64,000 nt of DNA. Origin: Deferribacter autotrophicus. GTDB taxonomy: Bacteria; Chrysiogenota; Deferribacteres; Deferribacterales; Deferribacteraceae. Made by a program: the position numbers and the translations under genes. Below the pieces are notes generated by a model. It was not told the origin of the DNA, ran no database searches, and saw nothing but the letters and a program-made list of their open reading frames with translations. Positions 990-32,525 of the stretch are shown here, piece after piece (position 1 is the first letter of the stretch; each line of letters begins with the position of its first letter). The stretch is from assembly GCF_008362905.1 (NCBI RefSeq), contig NZ_VFJB01000009.1, forward strand, positions 124,001-188,000, in the 5' to 3' direction.

Positions 990-1301
990 ATGATTAAATC
1001 AAGAAGAAGTTACAGCAAGGAATTTAAGCTGGAAGCGGTCCAACTGACACTTAATAGTGATAAGAGCGTAAAAGAGATAGCCTCAGATCTTGGCATATCG
1101 TATCAATTGCTTTGTAAGTGGCGTTCTGCTTACAAGTCTGATAATGAGGAATGTTTTCCAGGCAAAGGTAATTTAAAGCCATCGGAGAAAGAGTATCATG
1201 AGCTTCGCAAGAAGGTATTGGATTTGGAGGAGGAGCGAGAAATATTAAAAAAGGCGTTGGCCATTTTCTCATCAGCTCGCTCGAAAAATACAGGTTTATA
1301 A
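990..1301 (+). CDS. IS3-family transposase OrfA (HTH subunit)
   Basis: A 103-residue basic protein with an N-terminal helix-turn-helix (KEFKLEAVQL...SVKEIASDLGISYQLLCKWR, residues about 10-45) that binds the IS ends. A leucine-rich helix follows (YHELRKKVLDLEEEREILKKAL), used by this family for multimerisation. The slippery heptamer lies inside the EILKKA codons, so OrfA is both a separate product and the N-terminal part of the OrfAB transposase. AGGAGAAAGG lies upstream of the ATG. Confidence 0.92.
   Translation: MIKSRRSYSKEFKLEAVQLTLNSDKSVKEIASDLGISYQLLCKWRSAYKSDNEECFPGKGNLKPSEKEYHELRKKVLDLEEEREILKKALAIFSSARSKNTGL
1247..1253 (+). other. Programmed -1 frameshift site (A AAA AAG)
   Basis: The heptamer A_AAA_AAG lies in the orfA frame at 1247-1253, preceded 11 bases upstream by a Shine-Dalgarno-like GGAGGAG (about 1226-1235). 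Stepping back one base puts ribosomes in the orfB frame, which is open from here through the orfB ATG at 1310 (reading GVGHFLISSLEKYRFIRDN before MRNYS). This matches the known IS3-family mechanism for making the full-length OrfAB transposase. Confidence 0.85.
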
Positions 1302-1309
1302 GGGATAAT

Positions 1310-2161
1310 ATGAGGAATTATAGTGTAGAGAGAATGTGCCGATTATTAGGAGTGAGTCGCAGTGGTTACTATAAATGGAGATGTCAAGGTTTGAGTAAAC
1401 GAAGGATTTACAGGCAAAAATTATTATCTAAAATACGAGAGATATATGGGGACAGCCGGGGATTATATGGCAGTCCACGTATTCATGCCGAATTAATTCG
1501 TATTGGTTATAAATGCAGTCGCAAATTGGTTTCAGATATAATGCGCAAGGCTGGAATCAGGAGCAGGATTCGTAAGAGTTATAAACGAACAACAATCAGG
1601 AATTATAAGGATAAATACAGTGAGAATTTGTTGAAAAAGAATGATGTTATTCATGGTTCAGATTCTGTATGGGTATCAGATATAACGTATTTGAAAGTAT
1701 CAGGTGGTTGGAAATATTTAACGACGATAATGGATTTGTATAGTCGTAAGATTGTTGGTTATGCATTTTCTACTGGTATGAGTGCGAGAGAGACAGTGTT
1801 ACGAGCCTTTCGTTTTGCAGTTAAACATTGTGGAAGGATACCATCAATATTTCATTCAGATAGAGGGAGCCAGTATAGCAGTTTAGAATTTCGTAATGAA
1901 TTGAAGAGATTAAAGATTTCTCAAAGTATGACATCTGATGGCCATTGTTATGATAATGCGTATGCTGAGAGTTTTTTTAAGACTGTAAAGGTAGAATTGG
2001 TTCAGTTTCTGAAAGGTATGACGTGGGAAATGATGAAGAATGCAATTTTTGAATATATTGAATGTTTTTATAACCGGAAAAGATTACATTCTGGTATAGG
2101 TTATTTGACACCTGATGAGAAATATCAGAGTTTTTGTAAGTTAAATGAAATGATTGCTTAA
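1310..2161 (+). CDS. IS3-family transposase OrfB (DDE integrase core)
   Basis: A 283-residue integrase-fold (rve) protein with an N-terminal HTH_21 segment (MCRLLGVSRSGYYKW) and the catalytic triad: D in VWVSDITYLK, D in FHSDRGSQYSS, and E in DNAYAESFFKTVKVE. The ATG at 1310 follows the orfA stop by 8 bases, but the functional product is probably the frameshifted OrfAB. The C-terminus (YNRKRLHSGIGYLTPDEKY) is the family signature and is complete, and the stop lies inside the right inverted repeat. Confidence 0.93.
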   Translation: MRNYSVERMCRLLGVSRSGYYKWRCQGLSKRRIYRQKLLSKIREIYGDSRGLYGSPRIHAELIRIGYKCSRKLVSDIMRKAGIRSRIRKSYKRTTIRNYKDKYSENLLKKNDVIHGSDSVWVSDITYLKVSGGWKYLTTIMDLYSRKIVGYAFSTGMSARETVLRAFRFAVKHCGRIPSIFHSDRGSQYSSLEFRNELKRLKISQSMTSDGHCYDNAYAESFFKTVKVELVQFLKGMTWEMMKNAIFEYIECFYNRKRLHSGIGYLTPDEKYQSFCKLNEMIA

Positions 2162-2298: not shown

Positions 2299-3003
2299 TT
2301 AAAGCTCTTGATAAACCTCCTCAACAAATGATTTTAATTCCTCAAAATTTGGCTGTCTTTTCACAATCTCAGTGCCTATCACCACTCCATCGGCAAATTT
2401 TAAAATTCTCTCAACATCACCCCTGCTTCTTATTCCAAAGCCATACACAACCTTTTTACCAGTAACCTCTTTTATAAGTTTCACTTTTTCCTCATTTAAA
2501 CTTTTATTACCATCTGTAAATGTGCCAGTTGTTCCCTTTACCCCCACATAATAGATAAAATCTGCATCACTTCCTTTTAGACTTTCAATATCCTCAAGTC
2601 TGCTTGCAGGTGTCACAAAAGGGGTAATTTTGATTCTAAAATCTCTTTCTTTAAAAAATGTATGCATCCGGTTTGGTAAATCAGCTATGATTAAACCATC
2701 TAAGAAAGGTGTAAAATCTCTGCTAAACTCTTTTATCCCATAACTATATATTACATTTGCATAAGTCATCACATACTTTTTTTTATTGCACGAAATCTCC
2801 AATATTTTTTTCAAATCATTATAGCTCACTTTATCATGCACTTTTTCCACAGCCTCAGCTATCACTGCACCATCAGCCACAGGATCATTGAATGGATATC
2901 CAATTTCAATAAAATCAATTAAATTACTATTAATCAAATAATCATAAATTCTTCTAAAACTCTCTTTATCTGGATAATTCAAAACAATATATACCCCTTT
3001 CAT
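2299..3003 (-). CDS. trpA: Tryptophan synthase alpha subunit
   Basis: Cleaves indole-3-glycerol phosphate to indole and glyceraldehyde 3-phosphate; the indole is channelled to TrpB. A TIM-barrel protein with the catalytic residues E33 (FIEIGYPF) and D44 (DPVADG), and the C-terminal phosphate loop ([20 protein letters not shown]). At 234 residues it is about 30 shorter than the usual 265-270: it begins directly at the first beta strand and has a reduced C-terminus. The start ATG overlaps the trpB stop by four bases (ATGA). It is the last gene of the trp operon, and 126 bp separate its stop from the IS3 element. Confidence 0.96.
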
Positions 3004-4166
3004 ATCAACTCCTTTGCTTCATGTATAATATGCAAATCCTTATCCCCTCTTCCCGAAAGATTTATCAACACATTTTTACCTTTAAATTTTTCACAATTTT
3101 TAAGAACATAGGCAACAGCATGACTCGATTCTAAAGCTGGTAAAATCCCTTCATTCCTTGTCAACTCAAAAAAAGCTTTGAGAGCTTCCTCATCTCTCAC
3201 ACATTCATATTTCACTCTACCAATCTCCTTTAAATAGGCATGCTCTGGACCCACCCCAGGATAATCAAGCCCTGCAGAAATTGAATGAACCCTTGCAATT
3301 TGCCCTTCGTCTGTCTGAATCACATAAGAGAGACTACCTTGAAAAATCCCCTTTTTACCTTTTCCAATACTCATAGCATGGTTTCCAGGCTCATCAGAAA
3401 TACCACCTGCTTCTACCCCTATCAACTCCACATCTTTATCATCCACAAAACCTCTAAAAATACCTATGGCATTGCTTCCACCACCCACACAGGCCACCAC
3501 AACATCCGGCATAACCCCTTTTGTAAAAAAGTATTCTTTTGCTTCATTACCAATTACGGATTGAAAATGAGCCACTATTTCAGGAAATGGGTATGGCCCC
3601 ACTGCTGAGCCAATGAGATAATGTGTATTATCCACACTGCTAACCCAATCTCTAAGAGCAGCACTCACAGCATCCTTCAAAGTTTTACTCCCCTCATCTA
3701 CCACTCTTACCTCAGCACCTAGCATCCTCATCCTTTCCACATTCACAGCCTGCCTTTTTGCATCAACGCTACCCATATACACTGTGCACTCAAGATTTAA
3801 GAGTGCACAAGCTGTTGCAGTGGCTACACCATGCTGACCTGCACCGGTTTCTGCAATAACCCTGCTTTTCCCGATATATTTTGCAAGAAGAGCCTGACCA
3901 AGTGTGTTATTAATTTTATGAGCACCTGTATGAAGTAAATCCTCTCTTTTTAGATAAATATTTACCCCATATTTTTTTGAAAGATTTTTTGCAAAATATA
4001 CAGGGGTTGGTCTACCTGCATAATTTTTTAACAAATCATCAAGCTCTTCTTTAAATCTTTTATCATTTTTTATTTTAAGAAATGCTTTTTCAAGTTCATC
4101 AAGAGCAGGTATAAGGGTTTCTGCAACAAACTGGCCACCAAACTCACCATAAAATAATTTTTCCAT
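3000..4166 (-). CDS. trpB: Tryptophan synthase beta subunit
   Basis: PLP enzyme joining indole and L-serine to make tryptophan. It has the standard length (388 aa) and all hallmarks: [10 protein letters not shown] at the N-terminus, the PLP lysine K84 in HTGAHKINN, the ETGAGQHG loop, and the phosphate-binding GGGSNAIG. This is the TrpB1 type that pairs with TrpA. A good Shine-Dalgarno (GAGGTGG) lies just upstream of the ATG. In the ancestral order it should directly follow trpF, but about 1.8 kb of mobile and repeat DNA now separates them, so trpBA may depend on read-through or on a promoter in the insert. Confidence 0.97.
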
Positions 4167-4219
4167 TTTCCACCTCTATATTTTCTCCTTCATCTCCCAA
4201 AACAACAATAACAAAACTA

Positions 4220-4301
4220 CAGAGGGAAAACATTTTTCTCATTCTCGTGACACGTCCGGTGCCACTGCGAGGCAGGTTTCCCGAAAAATGTTTTTCCTCT
4301 G
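4220..4301 (-). repeat. Palindromic structured repeat, copy 1
   Basis: Long inverted repeat arms (4220-4239 and 4283-4301, CAGAGG-A-rich-CATTTTTC) enclose a conserved core. Read on the minus strand, the 35 bases 4272-4238 match the second copy at 32343-32377 at 32 of 35 positions, with three C/T differences. The core folds into a 28-nt hairpin (4244-4271, CTCG...CGAG outer pairs, six-pair inner stem). The arms of the two copies are unrelated in sequence, yet each is self-complementary. It sits 54-135 bases upstream of trpB in the same orientation. It could be a mobile non-coding element or a cis-acting RNA. There is no T-tract, so it is not a simple terminator. Confidence 0.7.
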
Positions 4302-4361
4302 TGTACATGCAATCTATCTATTATCAACTTCTAATTAGTCAACTATAAATATTAAAAATTA

Positions 4362-5561
4362 TTAAGATAATTTAGGCATATGAAAAACCTCTTTTTTTGT
4401 AAGCATGGCATAAAGTACACGCACAAGTTTGTTACACAATGCAATCATAGCTTTTCTATGAGGCATACCTTCCTCCTTCTTTTTCAAATAATACGCTCTA
4501 AAATACTCATTAAACTTCATAACACCACTTGCCATAAGATAAAGAATACGCCTAAGGGACCGGGATCCTTTTTTACTTATTCTGCCGTTACTATACATAC
4601 TTCCGGATTGTTTAATAGCAGGATCTATCCCGGCATAGGCAGCAAGTTTACCTTTGTTGGCAAATCTGTTTATATCTTTAATTTCTGCAAGAAAATGGGC
4701 AGCGGTAATATCATTAATTCCTTTGATAGAAGTAATAATCTCCATATCATCTTTTTTGGAAGATTTTATTTTATCAATAAATTCCTTCGTAATATTATCA
4801 AGTCGGCTATTAAGAAATATGAGCATTTCAACATCTTCTTTGATGACAGTAGCCCAGATATCAGAGGAAATACCAATGGAGGATTTAGCAAGGGATATGA
4901 GCTTCTGAGGGGTAATATTTGACTTATGTGCAAACTTCAATTCATCAAGAATCTTTTGAATATCATCTTCATTAGCATTCCTGATGATTTCAGCTGTAGG
5001 CATATGTTTAAGGATATGCAAAATGGATTGAGTAAATACATTGGCATTTGCCACAAGTTCAGGAAATACTACAGTAAGATGCTGTTTAAGCTGAGTCTTA
5101 ACTCTTGCAATCTGCTGAGTAATATGTTCTCTCATCCTGGCAAGTGCGATAATATCATTGGACTCAGGAAGAGCAAAATAATTGAAATGTTCAATATTCT
5201 TAGCTATAAATTTAGCAATGATAACAGCATCAATTTTATCGGTTTTGGTTTTTCTGAGAGTAACGGATTGGGCAAATTTTTTGATGAGAGCTGGATTAAT
5301 AAGACAGACATCTTTCTTTTTGGATACAAGGGATGCTAAGAGGTTAATGTGATAGCTGCCAGTAGATTCAAGAGCAATGATAGAGGAGTCATACTTTTTA
5401 ATCAAGTCATAGAAGCTGTTAAAACCATCAATGTCCATTTGAAATTCAGCTTCTTTGAGAAGTTCAAGCTTATTGTTAATAATAGCGCAATTAAACTTAT
5501 CTTTGGAAACATCAACACCTATAAAGAAAGCAAATTTGTCATTTTTCATGTCAAACCTCAC
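4362..5561 (-). CDS. IS110-family transposase (DEDD recombinase)
   Basis: A 399-residue protein with an N-terminal RuvC-like DEDD domain: D in FIGVDVSKDKF, E in ALESTGSYH, and the D...D pair in KTKTDKIDAVIIAKF. A coiled middle region follows. The C-terminal Transposase_20 domain (IKGINDITAAHFLAEI...LAAYAGIDPAIKQSGS, RISKKGSRSLRRILY) has the serine-rich stretch expected to hold the nucleophile. In this family the enzyme recombines DNA guided by a bridge RNA encoded beside the gene. The ATG could be 5561 or 5549 (MKNDKFAFFIG). No frameshift or stop is seen. Confidence 0.93.
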   Translation of the reverse strand: MRFDMKNDKFAFFIGVDVSKDKFNCAIINNKLELLKEAEFQMDIDGFNSFYDLIKKYDSSIIALESTGSYHINLLASLVSKKKDVCLINPALIKKFAQSVTLRKTKTDKIDAVIIAKFIAKNIEHFNYFALPESNDIIALARMREHITQQIARVKTQLKQHLTVVFPELVANANVFTQSILHILKHMPTAEIIRNANEDDIQKILDELKFAHKSNITPQKLISLAKSSIGISSDIWATVIKEDVEMLIFLNSRLDNITKEFIDKIKSSKKDDMEIITSIKGINDITAAHFLAEIKDINRFANKGKLAAYAGIDPAIKQSGSMYSNGRISKKGSRSLRRILYLMASGVMKFNEYFRAYYLKKKEEGMPHRKAMIALCNKLVRVLYAMLTKKEVFHMPKLS

Positions 5562-5571
5562 TTAAAATATT

Positions 5572-5700
5572 TTAGTCCCGAATCCAAACTCCCGTTTGAC
5601 AGTGGCTTGATAGCCAAATCAACCAATAGGGACTTTCGGGACGGGGGACAGACTAAATATGAAGCTTTTAAGCTTATTCCCACTGTAGTCCTCTGTCCCA
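5572..5700 (-). ncRNA. Candidate IS110 bridge RNA
   Basis: The region just upstream of the IS110 transposase, read on the minus strand, is rich in pairing. GGGACAGA (5699-5692) pairs with TCTGTCCC (5652-5645), enclosing a loop with AAGCTTTTAAGCTT. Next, GTCCCGAA (5642-5635) pairs with TTCGGGAC (5582-5575), enclosing smaller hairpins (GGCT/AGCC and AAAC/GTTT). Two internal loops within paired stems upstream of the gene are the layout known for IS110-group bridge RNAs (target-binding and donor-binding loops). The boundaries and the assignment of loops to target or donor are inferred; I could not fold it computationally. Confidence 0.5.
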
Positions 5701-5751
5701 TTCTTAATTCATTACATAATATAATTTTCTTATACAACAAAAAAACGTAGG

Positions 5752-5982
5752 AGTTGCCACTGAAAAGTGGCAACTAATTTATAATAATTGATTTATTTCA
5801 ATATTTCTATAAAAATTCCCCCAGTTTCTGAATAATTTTTACAAAAAAAATGGGGGATGTAACCCTTTTTAAGTATTTATAAAATGCATTTCATAAAACG
5901 AAAACTAAAATCATAAAAAATTTTTTATTGAATAATTAGTTCTCACTTTTTAAGTGAGAACTAATTACTAAATTGGCAACGC
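5752..5982. repeat. Non-coding repeat element with end hairpins
   Basis: About 230 bp between the IS110 leader and trpF, with a perfect 10-bp-arm hairpin at one end (5752-5775, AGTTGCCACT-GAAA-AGTGGCAACT) and a 16-bp-arm hairpin at the other (5933-5967, arms ending TTAGTTCTCACTT). The outer edges are similar and inverted (GGAGTTGCCA at 5750 and GGCGTTGCCA, reverse complement of 5970-5979). The 16-bp hairpin and its flank (TTTTTTATGATTTT) recur at 39787-39860 in the opposite orientation. No coding frame is seen. It looks like a small non-autonomous mobile element; function unknown. Confidence 0.55.
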
Positions 5983-5985
5983 CAG

Positions 5986-6537
5986 TTATTTTTCTGTCAT
6001 TGCATTTTTACATGCTTCAATAAATCTTTTCATTTTATCATAGCTTTTAATCCCGGGAGACTCTTCAACTGATGAGGACACATCTACACCAAAAGGCTTA
6101 ATCCTTTCTATCACGCTACGAACATTGTTTTCATCAAGACCACCTGAAAAAATCAGCTTCTCTCTATAATTGTATATCCAATCAGGTATATCCTCATCAA
6201 AAATACCTTTTCCCATACTTGCATCAAACATAAAATATTCATAATCTCTATGAGCTGGTTCAGCAGAAGAAGCATATATTAAGCCTTTAACTTTTCTGTA
6301 TTCATAAATTTGCACATAATCAAAAAAATTAGCACAATCCTTCATGTCATCATAAGTGAGGCTCACACATACTGTGAGTATTTTCCCTTTTGCATAACTA
6401 CTCAATTTTTTTGCGAAATCACTGGTCACATATCTTTTGCTTTTTGGATAAAGAACTACGCCAATAGCAGAAAAACCAAGCTCCACTGCCCAGTCAATCT
6501 GACAAAAATCTGTAATACCACAAACCTTTACAAACAT
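5986..6537 (-). CDS. trpF: Phosphoribosylanthranilate isomerase
   Basis: Converts N-(5-phosphoribosyl)anthranilate to the carboxyphenylamino-deoxyribulose phosphate used by TrpC. It is a compact 183-residue TIM barrel (family usually 200-220). The catalytic Cys lies in VKVCGIT near the N-terminus, the catalytic Asp in FMFDAS, and the C-terminal phosphate site reads GVDVSSSVEESPGIKS. The ATG overlaps the trpC 3' end by 10 bases and has GAGGGG upstream. The stop is immediately followed by the repeat element, which marks the break in the operon. Confidence 0.95.
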   Translation of the reverse strand: MFVKVCGITDFCQIDWAVELGFSAIGVVLYPKSKRYVTSDFAKKLSSYAKGKILTVCVSLTYDDMKDCANFFDYVQIYEYRKVKGLIYASSAEPAHRDYEYFMFDASMGKGIFDEDIPDWIYNYREKLIFSGGLDENNVRSVIERIKPFGVDVSSSVEESPGIKSYDKMKRFIEACKNAMTEK

Positions 6538-7280
6538 GAATACCCCTCAGATAATTCCTTTAACAACTCTACAGGATTATCACTTTTCATCAAAGATGTA
6601 CCCACAAGAAACATATCAGCCCCAGCCTCTTTAAATCTTTTTATATCTTCTTTAGTCTCAATTCCACTTTCAGCAATCTTGATATAATTACCCTTTATTT
6701 TGGACATCGTTTTCAACGCCTTTTCTTTATTCACCTTCAATGTGGTCAAATCTCTGCTATTGACTCCAAGAAATTTCACATCAAGGTCTTTTAACTTATA
6801 GAGCTCTTCATATTCGTGTATCTCCACAAGCACCTCAAGACCTAATTTCTTAGAATAATCAAACAATTTTTTTAGCTCATCACCTTCTAACATCGAAGCT
6901 ATGAGCAAAATTACATCAGCTCCATACTCATAAGCCAAATCAATCTGAACCTCATCAACAATAAAATCTTTACAAAGAATGGGCAAATTTACCGCACTAG
7001 AAATTTCTTTTAAAAATTTGAAATCACCATTAAAATAATTTTTATCCGTAAGTACACTAATAGCTGCTGCACCACCTTTTTCATACAACTCAGCCTGTCT
7101 TTTTACATCCACCTTCTTTATTTCACCAAGTGACGGAGAAGCCTGCTTCACCTCAGCTATAATCCTTCTATCAGGAAGAAATCTTTCAAAAGGGATAACC
7201 TCTTTAACTCTTTTCTCAGTTCCTTTTTTAAGTTCTTTAACCTCAGCTTTTTTAAGCTCATAAATCTTTTTTAAAAACAT
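6528..7280 (-). CDS. trpC: Indole-3-glycerol phosphate synthase
   Basis: Closes the indole ring by decarboxylation. A TIM barrel of about 250 aa with the conserved residues in IAEVKQASPS (Glu and Lys), LCKDFIVDEVQI (catalytic Lys), VEIHEYEEL, NSRDLTTLKV and IAESGI. I place the start at the ATG at 7280 because GAGGT lies six bases upstream; an in-frame TTG at 7292 is the only earlier option. It lies two bases from the trpD stop. Monofunctional, not fused to TrpF. Confidence 0.96.
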   Translation of the reverse strand: MFLKKIYELKKAEVKELKKGTEKRVKEVIPFERFLPDRRIIAEVKQASPSLGEIKKVDVKRQAELYEKGGAAAISVLTDKNYFNGDFKFLKEISSAVNLPILCKDFIVDEVQIDLAYEYGADVILLIASMLEGDELKKLFDYSKKLGLEVLVEIHEYEELYKLKDLDVKFLGVNSRDLTTLKVNKEKALKTMSKIKGNYIKIAESGIETKEDIKRFKEAGADMFLVGTSLMKSDNPVELLKELSEGYSCL

Positions 7281-7281
7281 T

Positions 7282-8274
7282 TTATACCTCAACAGCTGAT
7301 AGCATTTTCATCTTATTGTAACATTCACCACTTTTTATTTTTTCATACGCTTTCAAATATCCACTCTTCAAATCTATATCTTCTAAAAGATGAAGAGCAA
7401 GGGCAGTATTGAGTGCAAAAAGTTTGGCCACGTTTTCATCTTCTCCAGTTATTCCATTAAGAAAAAGTCTCTTTGCTTCAACTTCATCCCTTACACAAGG
7501 CATATCAAAAGGCTCAAAAAACTCCTCAGGGTTAACGGTTAAGTGCTCGGCCACCCCATTAACAATCTTGTAGCAGATTGTCATATCCTTTGTTGAAACT
7601 TCGTCATATCCATCTTTTGATGAATAAACTATAAATTTCCTATTCTTAAACCTTGTTACTGCCTCAGCATAAACGCTCAATTTGGATGAATCCCCCACAC
7701 CTATTATCTGATACTCTGGCTCTGCAGGATTTGCTAAAGGTCCAAGAAGATTAAAAATTGTGGGCACCATCAAATCCTTTCTTATTGGGGCAACATACTT
7801 CATTGCAGGATGAAAATTTGGTGCAAAAAGAAAAACAAAATTGTGGTTATCAAAAAACTTTTGAGCTTCATCAAGCGCCATTTTCACAGGGATACCAAAA
7901 GCTTCATAAATATTTGCAGAACCTACTCTACCACTTATAGCCACATTTCCATGCTTTACTACAGGATATCCCATGGACGAAAGTATAATAGCCACTGCTG
8001 ATGACACATTCACACAACTTTTACCGTCACCACCAGTCCCACATGTATCAATACATCTTTGTTTGCTGTGTTCAAATCTAATTTTATATTTGTTTAATAC
8101 TTTAGCCGCTGCAAAAATCTCATCAGCACTTTCCCCTCTCATTTTCATAGCTATTAATGCTCCACCTATCTGAGCATCACTTAAACTGCCAGTCATCATT
8201 GCATCAAAGAATAATAATGCTTCATTCTCAGTAAGTTTTTGCCCACTATATACTTTTTTGATTATTTCATTCAT
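7282..8274 (-). CDS. trpD: Anthranilate phosphoribosyltransferase
   Basis: Transfers the phosphoribosyl group of PRPP to anthranilate. Standard 330-residue length with the helical N-terminal domain, the glycine-rich PRPP/Mg site CGTGGDGKSCVNVSSA, the VVKHGN loop, and NLLGPLANP. It is a free-standing enzyme, not fused to TrpG. The ATG overlaps the trpG stop by four bases (ATGA), so translation is probably coupled. Confidence 0.97.
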   Translation of the reverse strand: MNEIIKKVYSGQKLTENEALLFFDAMMTGSLSDAQIGGALIAMKMRGESADEIFAAAKVLNKYKIRFEHSKQRCIDTCGTGGDGKSCVNVSSAVAIILSSMGYPVVKHGNVAISGRVGSANIYEAFGIPVKMALDEAQKFFDNHNFVFLFAPNFHPAMKYVAPIRKDLMVPTIFNLLGPLANPAEPEYQIIGVGDSSKLSVYAEAVTRFKNRKFIVYSSKDGYDEVSTKDMTICYKIVNGVAEHLTVNPEEFFEPFDMPCVRDEVEAKRLFLNGITGEDENVAKLFALNTALALHLLEDIDLKSGYLKAYEKIKSGECYNKMKMLSAVEV

Positions 8275-8834
8275 GTCACATCCTCCCTACATATTTTTAT
8301 AAAATTATTAACAATTTGTAAGCCATACTCACTTTTGATAGATTCTGGATGAAACTGAACTCCATAGAGCTTTTCCTCATTAAACTCTATGGCCATAATT
8401 TCATTATCAGATAACGCCCTCGCACAGACAAACTGCTCACTTACTTCTATAGCCAGAGAATGGTAACGAACAGATTTAAATCTATCAGGTAACCCCTTCA
8501 AAATCCTTGAGTCATTAGTTTTAACTATCTCATCAATCTTCCCATGCATAATAGTCTTAGCACTGCGAATTATTCCGGTTTTATAATAGGCAATACACTG
8601 CATACCAAGACAGACGCCAAAGATAGGCTTTTTCCCGGCATATTCCTCAATATATTTCATTGAAAAACCAGAATTTTGAGGATTTGATGGCCCCGGCGAA
8701 ATAATTATTCCTTCATAATTTGATGCATCTTTAAATTCATCATTTTTTATCACATCAAGATCAACACCTGCCTCTTTAAAAAGTGCAAAAAGGTTGTAAG
8801 TAAAAGAATCGTAATTATCTACCAGTAAAAACAT
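8271..8834 (-). CDS. trpG: Anthranilate synthase glutamine amidotransferase subunit
   Basis: Class I glutamine amidotransferase supplying ammonia to TrpE. It contains the oxyanion motif SPGPSNP, the nucleophile Cys in FGVCLGMQ, and the His-Glu pair in FHPESI. The start chosen is the ATG at 8834 (MFLLVDNYDSFTYNLF), which matches the family N-terminus and has GGAG seven bases upstream; a GTG at 8840 is possible. The gene overlaps trpE by 20 bases. It may also serve as PabA; no pabB is visible here. Confidence 0.95.
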   Translation of the reverse strand: MFLLVDNYDSFTYNLFALFKEAGVDLDVIKNDEFKDASNYEGIIISPGPSNPQNSGFSMKYIEEYAGKKPIFGVCLGMQCIAYYKTGIIRSAKTIMHGKIDEIVKTNDSRILKGLPDRFKSVRYHSLAIEVSEQFVCARALSDNEIMAIEFNEEKLYGVQFHPESIKSEYGLQIVNNFIKICREDVT

Positions 8835-10284
8835 GACCACTCTCCATATTTTTTGTTACTTCTATTGCTTTGAACAAAGCCCCCAACTTGTTTTCTACCT
8901 CGTAAAATTCCTTTTTAGGCACACTGTCATACACAATACCTGCTCCCGCCCTCAATACCATTTTCCCTTTCAGGAAAGCAGCACTTCTGATGGTAATGCA
9001 CGTGTCCATATCCCCTGCAAAAGAGAAATATCCAGCACATCCTGCATAAAACCCCCTTGCACTCCTTTCATACTCATCTATCAACTCCATAGCTCTCACC
9101 TTTGGAGCACCTGAAACTGTGCCAGCAGGAAACGTTCTGATAAATAAATCCAGATTGCTTATTTCTTTCTTTTTCACTCCCTCCACTTCTGAAACTATAT
9201 GCACCACATGGGAATATACCTCAGGGATAAAAGCAGAATTAACTTTTACCGTTTCCGGATAACAACCGCTATAAAGATCATTTCTTGCAAGATCCAAAAG
9301 CATAAGGTGTTCTGAAATTTCTTTTTCATCATTTAAAAGACTATTTTTTACAGACTCTATATCTTTTTCCACAGGATAAGTGCCTGCAATGGGTTTTAAA
9401 ATTGCTTTATTATCTTTGATTTTTAGATGAATTTCTGGGGATGAACCACATACAATGTAATCTTCAAATTTAAAGAAAAACATGTACGGCGAAGGGTTTA
9501 TATTGCGTAACGCTCTGTAAAAATTAATGGGATTTATAAACCCTTCTACTTCATATTTATTTGATATAACAACCTGTATTGCTTCACCATTAATTATTTC
9601 TCTCTTCACTTTCTCCACAATTTCTATGAAATCTTCCTTATCAAAATCCTTTTTTATAGAGATAATTTCATCTGAGTTTGACAGGTCAAAGTTTACCCTG
9701 TGAAGCTCATCCACCATTTCAATGGTTCTACCCAGTCCCATTCGGTAAGCTTCTTCCAGATCTAAATCTGTCTTTACCACTGAAACAGCATAAAATTTAT
9801 TTAAATGATTATCAAAAACGTAAAACTCATTTATCAATGCCAATCCCATAAGTAACTCATCAGGTTCTTTTATCCTCTTACGCAAAATTCCCATGTAATT
9901 TGCCATTTCATATCCAAAAAAACCTACATAACCACCGCAGAAATCTCCTATATTTTCATCTCTCATCCCATTAAATGCATTCATCTCATAATTTAGGTAA
10001 TCAATGGGATTTAAAAGAATCTCACTTTTTTTACCATTTGCAACTTCAATAAGTTTCCCCTTTTGAAACAGTAACACTTTTTCAGGCCTTTTTGCAAAAT
10101 ATGTGAATCTTGAAAAACTCTTATCAATGTTCGCACTTTCTAAGAGATATAAAAATTTCTCATTGGAAAAATTTCTAAGAAGCGAAATGGGAGTATAAAT
10201 ATCTCCCACAATTTCCCTGACAATGGGAATATGAGTGTATTTTTCTGACAATTTATTAAATTCATCAAAAGTAATGTTTATCAT
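8815..10284 (-). CDS. trpE: Anthranilate synthase component I
   Basis: Converts chorismate to anthranilate, the first committed step. A 489-residue protein with the N-terminal regulatory domain holding the LLES motif (FLYLLESANI) that binds tryptophan, so feedback inhibition is expected. The C-terminal chorismate-binding domain carries GSSPEIHLK, LKPIAGTYP, the RTFPAGTVSGAPKVRAME signature and GRAGAGIV-like ARAGAGIVYDSVP. GGAGG lies seven bases upstream of the ATG. Transcription into the gene passes two terminators and the leader peptide region described separately. Confidence 0.96.
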   Translation of the reverse strand: MINITFDEFNKLSEKYTHIPIVREIVGDIYTPISLLRNFSNEKFLYLLESANIDKSFSRFTYFAKRPEKVLLFQKGKLIEVANGKKSEILLNPIDYLNYEMNAFNGMRDENIGDFCGGYVGFFGYEMANYMGILRKRIKEPDELLMGLALINEFYVFDNHLNKFYAVSVVKTDLDLEEAYRMGLGRTIEMVDELHRVNFDLSNSDEIISIKKDFDKEDFIEIVEKVKREIINGEAIQVVISNKYEVEGFINPINFYRALRNINPSPYMFFFKFEDYIVCGSSPEIHLKIKDNKAILKPIAGTYPVEKDIESVKNSLLNDEKEISEHLMLLDLARNDLYSGCYPETVKVNSAFIPEVYSHVVHIVSEVEGVKKKEISNLDLFIRTFPAGTVSGAPKVRAMELIDEYERSARGFYAGCAGYFSFAGDMDTCITIRSAAFLKGKMVLRAGAGIVYDSVPKKEFYEVENKLGALFKAIEVTKNMESGHVFTGR

Positions 10285-10301
10285 TTCAACCTCCAGTTTT
10301 C

Positions 10302-10340
10302 AAAAAAAAAGGCCGTGAGATTTTTCATCCCACGGCCCTT
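10302..10340 (-). terminator. trp leader terminator 2
   Basis: On the minus strand, GGCCGTGGGA pairs with TCTCACGGCC (ten pairs including one G-U) around an A-rich loop and is followed by nine T. It ends only 18 bases before the trpE ATG. Its 5' arm AAGGGCCGTG is also an exact complement of CACGGCCCTT in the 3' arm of terminator 1, so the two hairpins can exchange strands. It may be a second stage of the attenuator or a backup. Confidence 0.85.
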
Positions 10341-10353
10341 AAAGTCTGTATAC

Positions 10354-10392
10354 CAAAAAGGGCCGTGTGGCTGTCCACCACACGGCCCTTTT
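10354..10392 (-). terminator. trp leader terminator 1 (attenuator 3:4 hairpin)
   Basis: On the minus strand, AAAAGGGCCGTGTGG pairs with CCACACGGCCCTTTT around the loop TGGACAG, followed by a T-run. The arms are perfect over 15 pairs. The top of the hairpin (TGGTGGACAGCC, 10379-10368) copies the Trp-codon region of the leader peptide gene, so the same upstream strand (10406-10417) can bind either one. This is the logic of a transcription attenuator. Confidence 0.93.
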
Positions 10393-10405
10393 AATCGCAC
10401 ATCTA

Positions 10406-10417
10406 TGGTGAACAGCC
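10406..10417 (-). promoter_or_regulatory. trp attenuator segment 2 (antiterminator strand)
   Basis: The minus-strand sequence GGCTGTTCACCA pairs with TGGTGGACAGC in the Trp-codon region (10440-10430, eleven pairs with one G-U). It pairs equally with TGGTGGACAGCC in terminator 1 (twelve pairs with one G-U). It begins at the leader stop codon, so a ribosome that reaches the stop would cover it, favouring termination, while one stalled on the Trp codons frees it, favouring antitermination. Confidence 0.88.
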
Positions 10418-10494
10418 TACTTATCCAATGCTGTCCACCACCAAGCTTTAAAATTTGATGTCAAATTAGCGTTAAAAAATATTGAACTCATCAT
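10417..10494 (-). CDS. trpL: trp operon leader peptide
   Basis: A 25-residue frame beginning ATG ATG at 10494 and ending TAG at 10417. It carries three consecutive Trp codons (residues 18-20, in FKAWWWTALDK), positioned so that they overlap attenuator segment 1. There is no clear Shine-Dalgarno; the likely promoter lies so close that the mRNA may start at or next to the ATG (leaderless translation). An in-frame stop upstream excludes a longer peptide. Three Trp in 25 residues directly ahead of trpE makes chance very unlikely. Confidence 0.92.
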   Translation of the reverse strand: MMSSIFFNANLTSNFKAWWWTALDK

Positions 10495-10499
10495 ATGTA

Positions 10500-10529
10500 A
10501 AATATAACAACATACTTTTCATTTGTAAA
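10500..10529 (-). promoter_or_regulatory. Probable trp operon promoter
   Basis: On the minus strand, TTTACA and TATATT are separated by 17 bases and end six bases before the ATG ATG of the leader peptide. Both boxes are close to the sigma-70 consensus. No Trp-repressor-like palindrome is obvious over it, in keeping with control by attenuation. A weaker TATAAT further upstream (near 10600) is an alternative. Confidence 0.55.
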
Positions 10530-10774
10530 GGACTTTTTTATTTTGAGCACCCCAAAATCTACAAAATTACGCAAAAACAATACATTGGAAATACATTATA
10601 ACAACTCAACGCGCTTATACTGAAAAAATTATTATGTAGATTGCTTCGTCGCTAGCGCTCTTCGCAAAAACTTAATACTTAATGCTTAGTGCTAACGTCG
10701 AACTTTGAACCTTGAACTGTTTATATTTCCCTATTTCACTATCTCTTCACAAAAAACGGTGTAACTCCAGTTTT
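10530..10774. other. Intergenic region between flagellar block and trp promoter
   Basis: No gene is seen. It contains degenerate short repeats (CTTAATACTTAATGCTTAGTGC near 10670) and ACTTTGAACCTTGAACTG (about 10702-10720), close to ACATTGAACCTTGAACTT near 32190. It ends with GGTGTAACTCCAG (10758-10770), which resembles the terminal repeat of the element at 32231-32467 (GGGGTGACGCCAG). No convincing terminator for the flagellar block was found. Confidence 0.5.
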
Positions 10775-11611
10775 TTATACAATCGTCTCAAAATGCCCTA
10801 AAGATGATATCAACTTTGAATCGAAATCAAACTCTTTTTCTATTTCTTCCACTTTAAGTTCTTTCCAGTTTAATCTAACATTTTCAATATTTATCTGATT
10901 TATCAATTCTTTAAACCTACTTTCCGTAAATATAGTACCTGTTATTTCTCCTTGAAATTCTCTTAGTTTAACCATTATTGTCCCAAGTTTGGAAAAAGTT
11001 GTTTTTATCGTAATATAAAAACCTTCTCTACTTTTTTTTATTTTAATCTCTCCATCCTTTATGCCATACTCCACTGATTTAAAGGGCAAAAAAATCTCCC
11101 CATGCATTAAAAGATTTACCTGTAACTTCAAAAACATATCTTTTAAGTTACTATTATCTTTATAAATAAGCCCCTTCACATCGTTAGACACATCCTCACC
11201 ATCAGCAATCTTCTTTTCAAAAAACAAACCGCTATCCTTTATTAATTTCATTATCTCTTCTTTGTCTAACTTTTTTAAATCAAAGTGAGTAAAAGATCTT
11301 AGAAATTTAAAAATCTCATCTTTACTAAATTTTACAGCAATCTTTTTTAAAAAAATTGCGTCAAGATTTTGAACCGGCTCTTTTACAGTTTTCAGCTCTA
11401 AAAATGGTTCTGTTTTTATAACTTCAGCTTTAAATTTAGATAAAGTAATCTCAGAATTAATCATAGCTTTTAAAAGTTTCCCTTTAATACTTACTACAAA
11501 CCGGTTTTTATCAATTAATCTTATTACTTTTACATTTACTACTTCACCTTTTTTCAACGGAGGTAGTTCTTTACTGAGAATATGTGAAAGATTACTGTTC
11601 TCAATTTTCAT
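10775..11611 (-). CDS. FliK-like flagellar hook-length control candidate
   Basis: A 278-residue Lys-rich protein. The N-terminal part (about residues 20-65, GEVVNVKVIRLIDKNRFVVSIKGK) looks like a small beta domain. The C-terminal part (about 190-250, FSKLGTIMVKLREFQGEITGTIFTESRFKELINQ) has the pattern of the Flg_hook domain of FliK, where LG-x-V-x-V-x-L is followed by a helix. Family members measure hook length and switch export specificity by contacting FlhB. It is the last gene of the flagellar/chemotaxis block and overlaps the gene before it by 11 bases. The match is by eye and only moderate. Confidence 0.5.
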   Translation of the reverse strand: MKIENSNLSHILSKELPPLKKGEVVNVKVIRLIDKNRFVVSIKGKLLKAMINSEITLSKFKAEVIKTEPFLELKTVKEPVQNLDAIFLKKIAVKFSKDEIFKFLRSFTHFDLKKLDKEEIMKLIKDSGLFFEKKIADGEDVSNDVKGLIYKDNSNLKDMFLKLQVNLLMHGEIFLPFKSVEYGIKDGEIKIKKSREGFYITIKTTFSKLGTIMVKLREFQGEITGTIFTESRFKELINQINIENVRLNWKELKVEEIEKEFDFDSKLISSLGHFETIV

Positions 11612-32106: not shown

Positions 32107-32230
32107 TACACCTCACATTCTAACAAATCCATCCCACTCTACTCTCACACAATAATTTCTCCTCCCTCTCAACTTGCCACCTAACCTAGAACATTGAACC
32201 TTGAACTTCCTATTTCCTTTATTCCTAACC

Positions 32231-32467
32231 CTGGCGTCACCCCATTTTTTACAAAATCTCGTTTATATATGCTAGAGTTAAAATATCTTCCGGGTTTAAA
32301 TCCCCAAAAATGAGCCATAGACGGCGGTTTTAGAGGGATTTACCTCGCAGTGGCACTGGATGTGCCACGAGAATGAGGAAGATATTTTATCTCTGGCTTT
32401 TTTCGCGTAATTTATTGAAATTAATAACATCTTCTTGTTCTGTGTCAAAAAAATGGGGTGACGCCAG
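32231..32467. repeat. MITE-like element with 20-bp terminal inverted repeats
   Basis: A 237-bp non-coding block whose ends are exact inverted repeats over 20 bases: CTGGCGTCACCCCATTTTTT at 32231-32250, with its complement ending at 32467. Flanking copies of TTATTCCTA occur on both sides, though with a three-base offset on the left, so a target duplication is only suggestive. It carries no coding frame of note and encloses the structured repeat at 32279-32389. Similar end sequences (GGTGTAACTCCAG at 10758, CTGGTGTAAC reverse of 40233-40242) hint at a family. Confidence 0.7.
32279..32389 (+). repeat. Palindromic structured repeat, copy 2
   Basis: 13-bp perfect inverted repeat arms (32279-32291 TAAAATATCTTCC and 32377-32389) enclose CGGGTTTAAATCCC, a spacer with ACGGCGG, and the 35-nt conserved core 32343-32377. 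The core hairpin 32344-32371 has the same 28-nt length as copy 1. In copy 1 the stem has a G-U where this copy has G-C. This orientation is opposite to the surrounding genes, so it is not a leader of either neighbour. Confidence 0.7.
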
Positions 32468-32525
32468 TTATTCCTACTCTCCTTCATTATTCACAATTCA
32501 ACATTTAAAATTCATCATTCTTAAT

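Follow-up and report, generated by a model that had tools for sequence, protein, structure and literature searches.

The trp operon in the window (the whole 64-kb stretch of DNA analysed here) is preceded by a trp attenuator with two terminators whose arms are cross-complementary, as the first-pass annotation had observed. The most probable reading (probability about 0.7) is that this leader is a six-segment ribosome-sensing 'domino' attenuator, in which pairing of segments 2 and 3 frees segment 4 of the first terminator (T1), and pairing of segments 4 and 5 disarms the second (T2). The anatomy of the leader, its conservation and the covariation of all three helices are directly visible in the sequences compared. 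The feature is real and conserved, and the modelled relay is its likely mode of action.

Architecture of the trp leader

The leader occupies positions 10494-10285 of the minus strand, upstream of trpE, and every element named in the first-pass annotation was located there; all leader coordinates below refer to this strand. A predicted promoter (TTTACA-17-TATATT with an extended TG, 10501..10529) would place the transcription start near 10494. Directly after it comes trpL (10417..10494), a leader ORF of 25 codons that encodes MMSSIFFNANLTSNFKAWWWTALDK and ends in FKAWWWTALDK, with the three consecutive Trp codons at 10443-10435 and the stop codon TAG at 10419-10417.

Segment 1 (TGGTGGACAGCA, 10429..10440) lies inside trpL and is a partner of segment 2 (GGCTGTTCACCATA, 10404..10417; GGCTGTTCACCA at 10417-10406 as originally delimited), which alternates between segments 1 and 3. 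Segment 3 (TGTGGTGGACAGCC, 10369..10382) forms the loop and upper stem of T1 and pairs with segment 2 over 14 pairs to give the antiterminator. T1 itself (10355..10392; AAAAGGGCCGTGTGG-tggacag-CCACACGGCCCTTTT) has a computed folding energy of -30.1 kcal/mol and a short T tract, and its 3' arm holds segment 4 (CACGGCCCTT, 10358..10367). T2 (10302..10340; AAGGGCCGTGGGAT-gaaaa-ATCTCACGGCCTTT, then a T run) has a computed energy of -22.7 kcal/mol, with segment 5 (AAGGGCCGTG, 10331..10340) in its 5' arm and segment 6 as its 3' arm. The annotated match between the two terminators is exact: segments 4 (10367-10358) and 5 (10340-10331) are perfect reverse complements and form an uninterrupted 10-bp helix of about -23 kcal/mol.

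The 1:2, 2:3 and 3:4 pairings are mutually exclusive, with energies computed for all leaders; in the window leader these are -19.9 kcal/mol for the 1:2 hairpin and -27.6 kcal/mol for the 2:3 region. Together with a WWW run in trpL ahead of trpE and intrinsic terminators between the leader ORF and the first gene, this exchange is that of a trp-type attenuator, and simulation of the window leader shows a switch with ribosome position, in line with the classical exchange first proposed. The sequence TGGTGGACAGC is present in trpL and again in T1, so segment 2 can indeed pair with either copy. This repeat had been singled out as a copied Trp-codon sequence; the repeat is real but ordinary, and it is expected because in every attenuator segment 2 has both segment 1 and segment 3 as partners.

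Where upstream sequence is available, the trpL ATG of most leaders lies 5-9 nt past the -10 hexamer. Because of this short distance, the trpL mRNA is probably leaderless, with the ribosome probably loading at the mRNA 5' end. The Sinorhizobium meliloti trpL is described as leaderless (PMC7298713), and the two are alike in a trpL that apparently starts at the mRNA 5' end and in trp attenuation. In the part of that source considered here, a single terminator is drawn and a tandem relay is not described, whereas the present leader has two terminators.

A proposed relay between the terminators

When tryptophan is plentiful, a ribosome that completes trpL would cover segment 2, allowing T1 (3:4) to form. 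T1 would halt most polymerases, and those that escape would then reach T2 (5:6), which would be available to them since T1 keeps hold of segment 4. When tryptophan is scarce, a ribosome stalled on the Trp codons would cover segment 1, and segment 2 would pair with segment 3, breaking T1 and freeing segment 4. The emerging segment 5 would then be captured by segment 4 before segment 6 exists, and T2 would fail too because its base could not close beside the U run. A single stall would thus open two gates in series, with tight shut-off and full opening expected as the termination and tryptophan response of the operon.

A relay that acts as the model suggests would explain how a leaky attenuator is made tight without loss of full induction: the two terminators would multiply the block at high tryptophan, and their common strand would lift both at low tryptophan. 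It would also offer a natural, testable example of series-coupled RNA switches, retained in six families of the order, and a rule by which attenuators could be engineered.

The two terminators and their complementarity are conserved

A search for trpE over 60 relatives, followed by inspection of the upstream DNA, gave 23 leaders with intact trpL, T1 and T2, drawn from six families (f1, f2, f3, f5, f6 and f8) within the order of this genome; a further leader, L012, is cut by a contig end and was left out of this set. A pattern search over the order covered 46 genomes, and the leader set is complete for that collection. The WWW run, T1 and T2 are present in 23/23 complete leaders, one of which has WWWW; in L009 the position of T2 was assigned manually. 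In almost every leader the G+C stem of T2 runs straight into about six Ts or more, a tract that is interrupted in L008. The related genomes therefore retain the second terminator, and the complementarity of the arms is preserved through compensatory changes; the loss of either had been named beforehand as grounds for rejecting the proposal.

For covariation, the arms were aligned manually without gaps in 20 distinct rows (A1), and all counts from this alignment are limited by shared ancestry: 97.2% of 4:5 cells are paired, with changes on both sides at 7/9 pairs and 16 double-changed cells, where shuffles give 4.2 and reach 16 in 0/500; the control pairing of the T1 5' arm with the T2 3' arm, which the relay model does not need, has 82.8% of cells paired and 5 double-changed cells; and the T1 and T2 stems together have 94.6% of cells paired, with changes on both sides at 17/24 pairs. 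Sliding the partners of the 4:5 helix lowers the paired cells to 26-51%. Core variants that are matched between segments 4 and 5 include GGCCGTG, AGCCGTG, GGCTGTG, GGCCC and GGCCGC. In L020 and L023, a C-to-U change in segment 5 matches an A in segment 4 and the T2 3' arm stays G, so that 4:5 is Watson-Crick at a position where T2 has G.U. Genus g6 at first looked unrelated and was considered as a counter-example, but this was rejected: its T2 is rebuilt and very stable (-27 to -30), and an uninterrupted 4:5 helix persists through G.U pairs, although this helix contains many wobbles and is far less stable than T2.

When substitutions are collapsed by genus, 12/12 segment 5 transitions keep pairing, against 76% by chance (about p=0.04), and 5/5 segment 5 transversions, all at the helix end, lose it; the comparison with the control pairing gives a Fisher p=0.08. 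This collapsed test is only suggestive, and template-switch correction between inverted repeats could also hold the arms similar in the absence of selection. An arm swap test between genomes gave a mixed result, because most genomes have an identical core.

Other leaders differ in form. Family f7 is mostly without this trpE. Leaders judged T-box-like by eye (GGTGGCACCGCGG) were seen in family f4 only (L030 and L071), where they lie ahead of trpE; that of L030 has no Rfam match at gathering score. In L029, from another family of the phylum, a trpL with a WRWW run is followed by a strong hairpin without a U run and one terminator, and the terminator contains CGGTCGTGG, a possible pairing partner for CCACGATCG of the first hairpin; this leader is perhaps a relay with one terminator. 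In L008, L011, L017 and L019, insertions of palindrome-rich repeats separate T2 from trpE, and T1 and T2 remain in place.

Folding simulations of a possible kinetic relay

In equilibrium folds of most leaders, that of the window among them, T2 is favoured over the 4:5 hairpin, and the relay would therefore have to work kinetically, with segment 5 emerging before segment 6. We used an approximate, heuristic model of co-transcriptional folding, built on constrained folds and findpath barriers at 50 nt/s. With the ribosome stalled at the second Trp codon (W2), the modelled values for the window leader are 0.03 for T1 and 0.01 for T2, and both are 0.98 with the peptide finished and the ribosome at the stop codon. 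Hiding segment 4 during the stall returns T2 to 0.98. T2 is thus not always the winner in this leader: it is suppressed in the co-transcriptional fold when segment 1 is covered, and returns when segment 4 is unavailable. Six T2 variants that are about as stable but lack the 4:5 match were also simulated, and their T2 values under stall were 0.98, 0.93, 0.74, 0.48, 0.00 and 0.75; they replaced an initial inverted-T2 in-silico mutant that misfolded and was uninformative. With altered rates or a W3 stall, T2 in the window leader rises to 0.06-0.55, and to 0.2-0.55 when refolding is assumed to be faster or the stall is at W3.

The W2-stall simulation was run on a sample of 15 leaders. The on/off pattern is clear in six (L001, L003, L010, L016, L020 and L023, with less clean controls in L003 and L020), partial in L002 and L018, and seen in L006 at W3 only. 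It is absent in L005, L007 and L009, where T2 still forms under stall. Three leaders are uninformative: the model does not open even T1 in L022 and L024, and L013 has no T2 in the finished-peptide state. Because the leaders split in this way, the simulation is supportive of the relay but not decisive. The first-pass suggestion that the freed 3' arm of T1 disarms T2 is accordingly supported, within two limits: conservation, compensatory changes and the window simulation favour it, and the equilibrium advantage of T2 and the weak 4:5 helix of g6 do not. The proposed comparison of 4:5 with T2 likewise comes out for T2 at equilibrium in most leaders and against it in the kinetic simulation of the window leader.

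Alternative explanations for the second terminator

The main competitor to the relay is a classical one-terminator attenuator followed by an uncoupled, constitutive backup T2, whose likeness to T1 would stem from an old duplication and have been preserved since then as template switching, or conversion, acted on the short inverted repeats. T2 does resemble T1 in most genomes, and the equilibrium preference for T2 over 4:5, the very stable T2 of g6 beside its weak, wobble-rich 4:5 helix, and the weak significance of the collapsed substitution test are all as this reading would have it. A strong uncoupled T2 would, however, block the operon even under starvation, and plain copying predicts equal retention of the two cross-pairings, whereas 4:5 is kept at 97% and the T1-5':T2-3' pairing at 83%. 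L020 and L023, moreover, hold 4:5 as Watson-Crick at the cost of G.U in T2, and g6 has rebuilt T2 yet retains 4:5 uninterrupted. We consider an uncoupled backup unlikely, though it deserves to be taken seriously.

T2 might instead be a non-terminating hairpin that guards the 5' end of a processed trpEGDCFBA mRNA or affects trpE translation, a reading that fits its location shortly before the ribosome-binding site of trpE (10294-10290). This is improbable: nearly all T2 copies have the T run directly after the G+C stem, which a stabilizing hairpin does not need, and the Shine-Dalgarno sequence lies outside T2. Least credible of all is a resemblance due to chance, or to features that terminators of this genome generally have in common. 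Terminator arms commonly have an A-rich/GC/U-rich layout, but a GGCCGTG-N3-20-CACGGCC hairpin occurs at two sites only in the 2.5-Mb genome, namely T1 and T2, and a generic genome terminator was rejected on that ground. In the window leader, the 4:5 duplex (-23.0 kcal/mol) beats all 2000 dinucleotide-shuffled T2 5' arms (mean -12.6; p=0.0005). The retention of 4:5 in 23/23 leaders, compensatory changes included, adds to counts that already refute chance. In a scan of the window, T1 and T2 are the sole tandem terminator pair among 11 terminators.

Relation to known leaders

Ribosome-mediated trp attenuators have been described for Corynebacterium and Streptomyces (PMC1262725). The present leader is like the Escherichia coli trpL-type attenuator in its Trp-codon leader peptide, its 1:2, 2:3 and 3:4 pairings, its position upstream of trpE, its GC-rich terminator with a U run, and the similarity of segments 1 and 3, which both pair with segment 2. 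It differs in two additional segments, 5 and 6, which make up a second terminator; segment 4 is complementary to the 5' arm of that terminator. Tandem terminators in ribosome-controlled leaders are already known: going by the description of ermK of Bacillus licheniformis in PMC4335068, on which our comparison is based, that attenuator has two adjacent Rho-independent terminators, with ribosome stalling in a leader ORF controlling read-through of both. Its signal is a macrolide rather than tryptophan; two adjacent terminators are present in both, and joint control is argued here from conservation and folding models. The rimP leader of some Gammaproteobacteria also has tandem terminators, with a potential anti-terminator (PMC2965389), but lacks a Trp-codon leader peptide and belongs to another gene and phylum. 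Anti-antiterminator relays are known as well, for example in vmlR (PMC9226507).

In the open-licence literature we found no paper on the trp operon attenuator of Deferribacter, and no amino-acid operon in which an arm released from the first terminator disarms a second one. We think the odds somewhat favour the joint claim that a conserved relay evolved in the order, whereby the opening of the first terminator actively breaks the next via a common strand and one stall opens both, and that such a cascaded RNA switch is previously undescribed for amino-acid operons. Rfam gave no family at gathering score for window positions 9800-11000 or for the whole loci of L002 and L023; matches with E<1 (U11 and others) fall under the cut-off and are caused by hairpins. 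A T-box identity was rejected for the window leader, which has no Rfam match at gathering score and carries a leader peptide instead. No comparable attenuators were seen at hisG, ilvD/ilvB or pheA of the same genome.

The trp operon and its surroundings

The first structural gene, trpE (8815..10284, minus strand), is named from its sequence and operon context. The rest of the operon (2299..8840, minus strand), whose trp genes were named from sequence, comprises trpG (8271-8840), trpD (7282-8274), trpC (6528-7292), trpF (5986-6537), an IS110-type gene, trpB (3000-4166) and trpA (2299-3003), in that order. The IS110-type transposase gene (4362-5561) separates trpF from trpB and has the same orientation as the operon genes, and an IS3-type orfA/orfB pair (window 990-2161) adjoins the trpA end. 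The sequence ATGGGGTGACNCCAGAA has 68 copies in the source genome (<=2 mismatches), for example at about 32229-32469 of the window. Often the copies form inverted pairs with a spacing of about 220 or 1500 bp, and they probably mark the termini of an IS and of a short non-coding element related to it. Near the trp (about 10553), pheA and ilvD promoters there are degenerate copies of the sequence.
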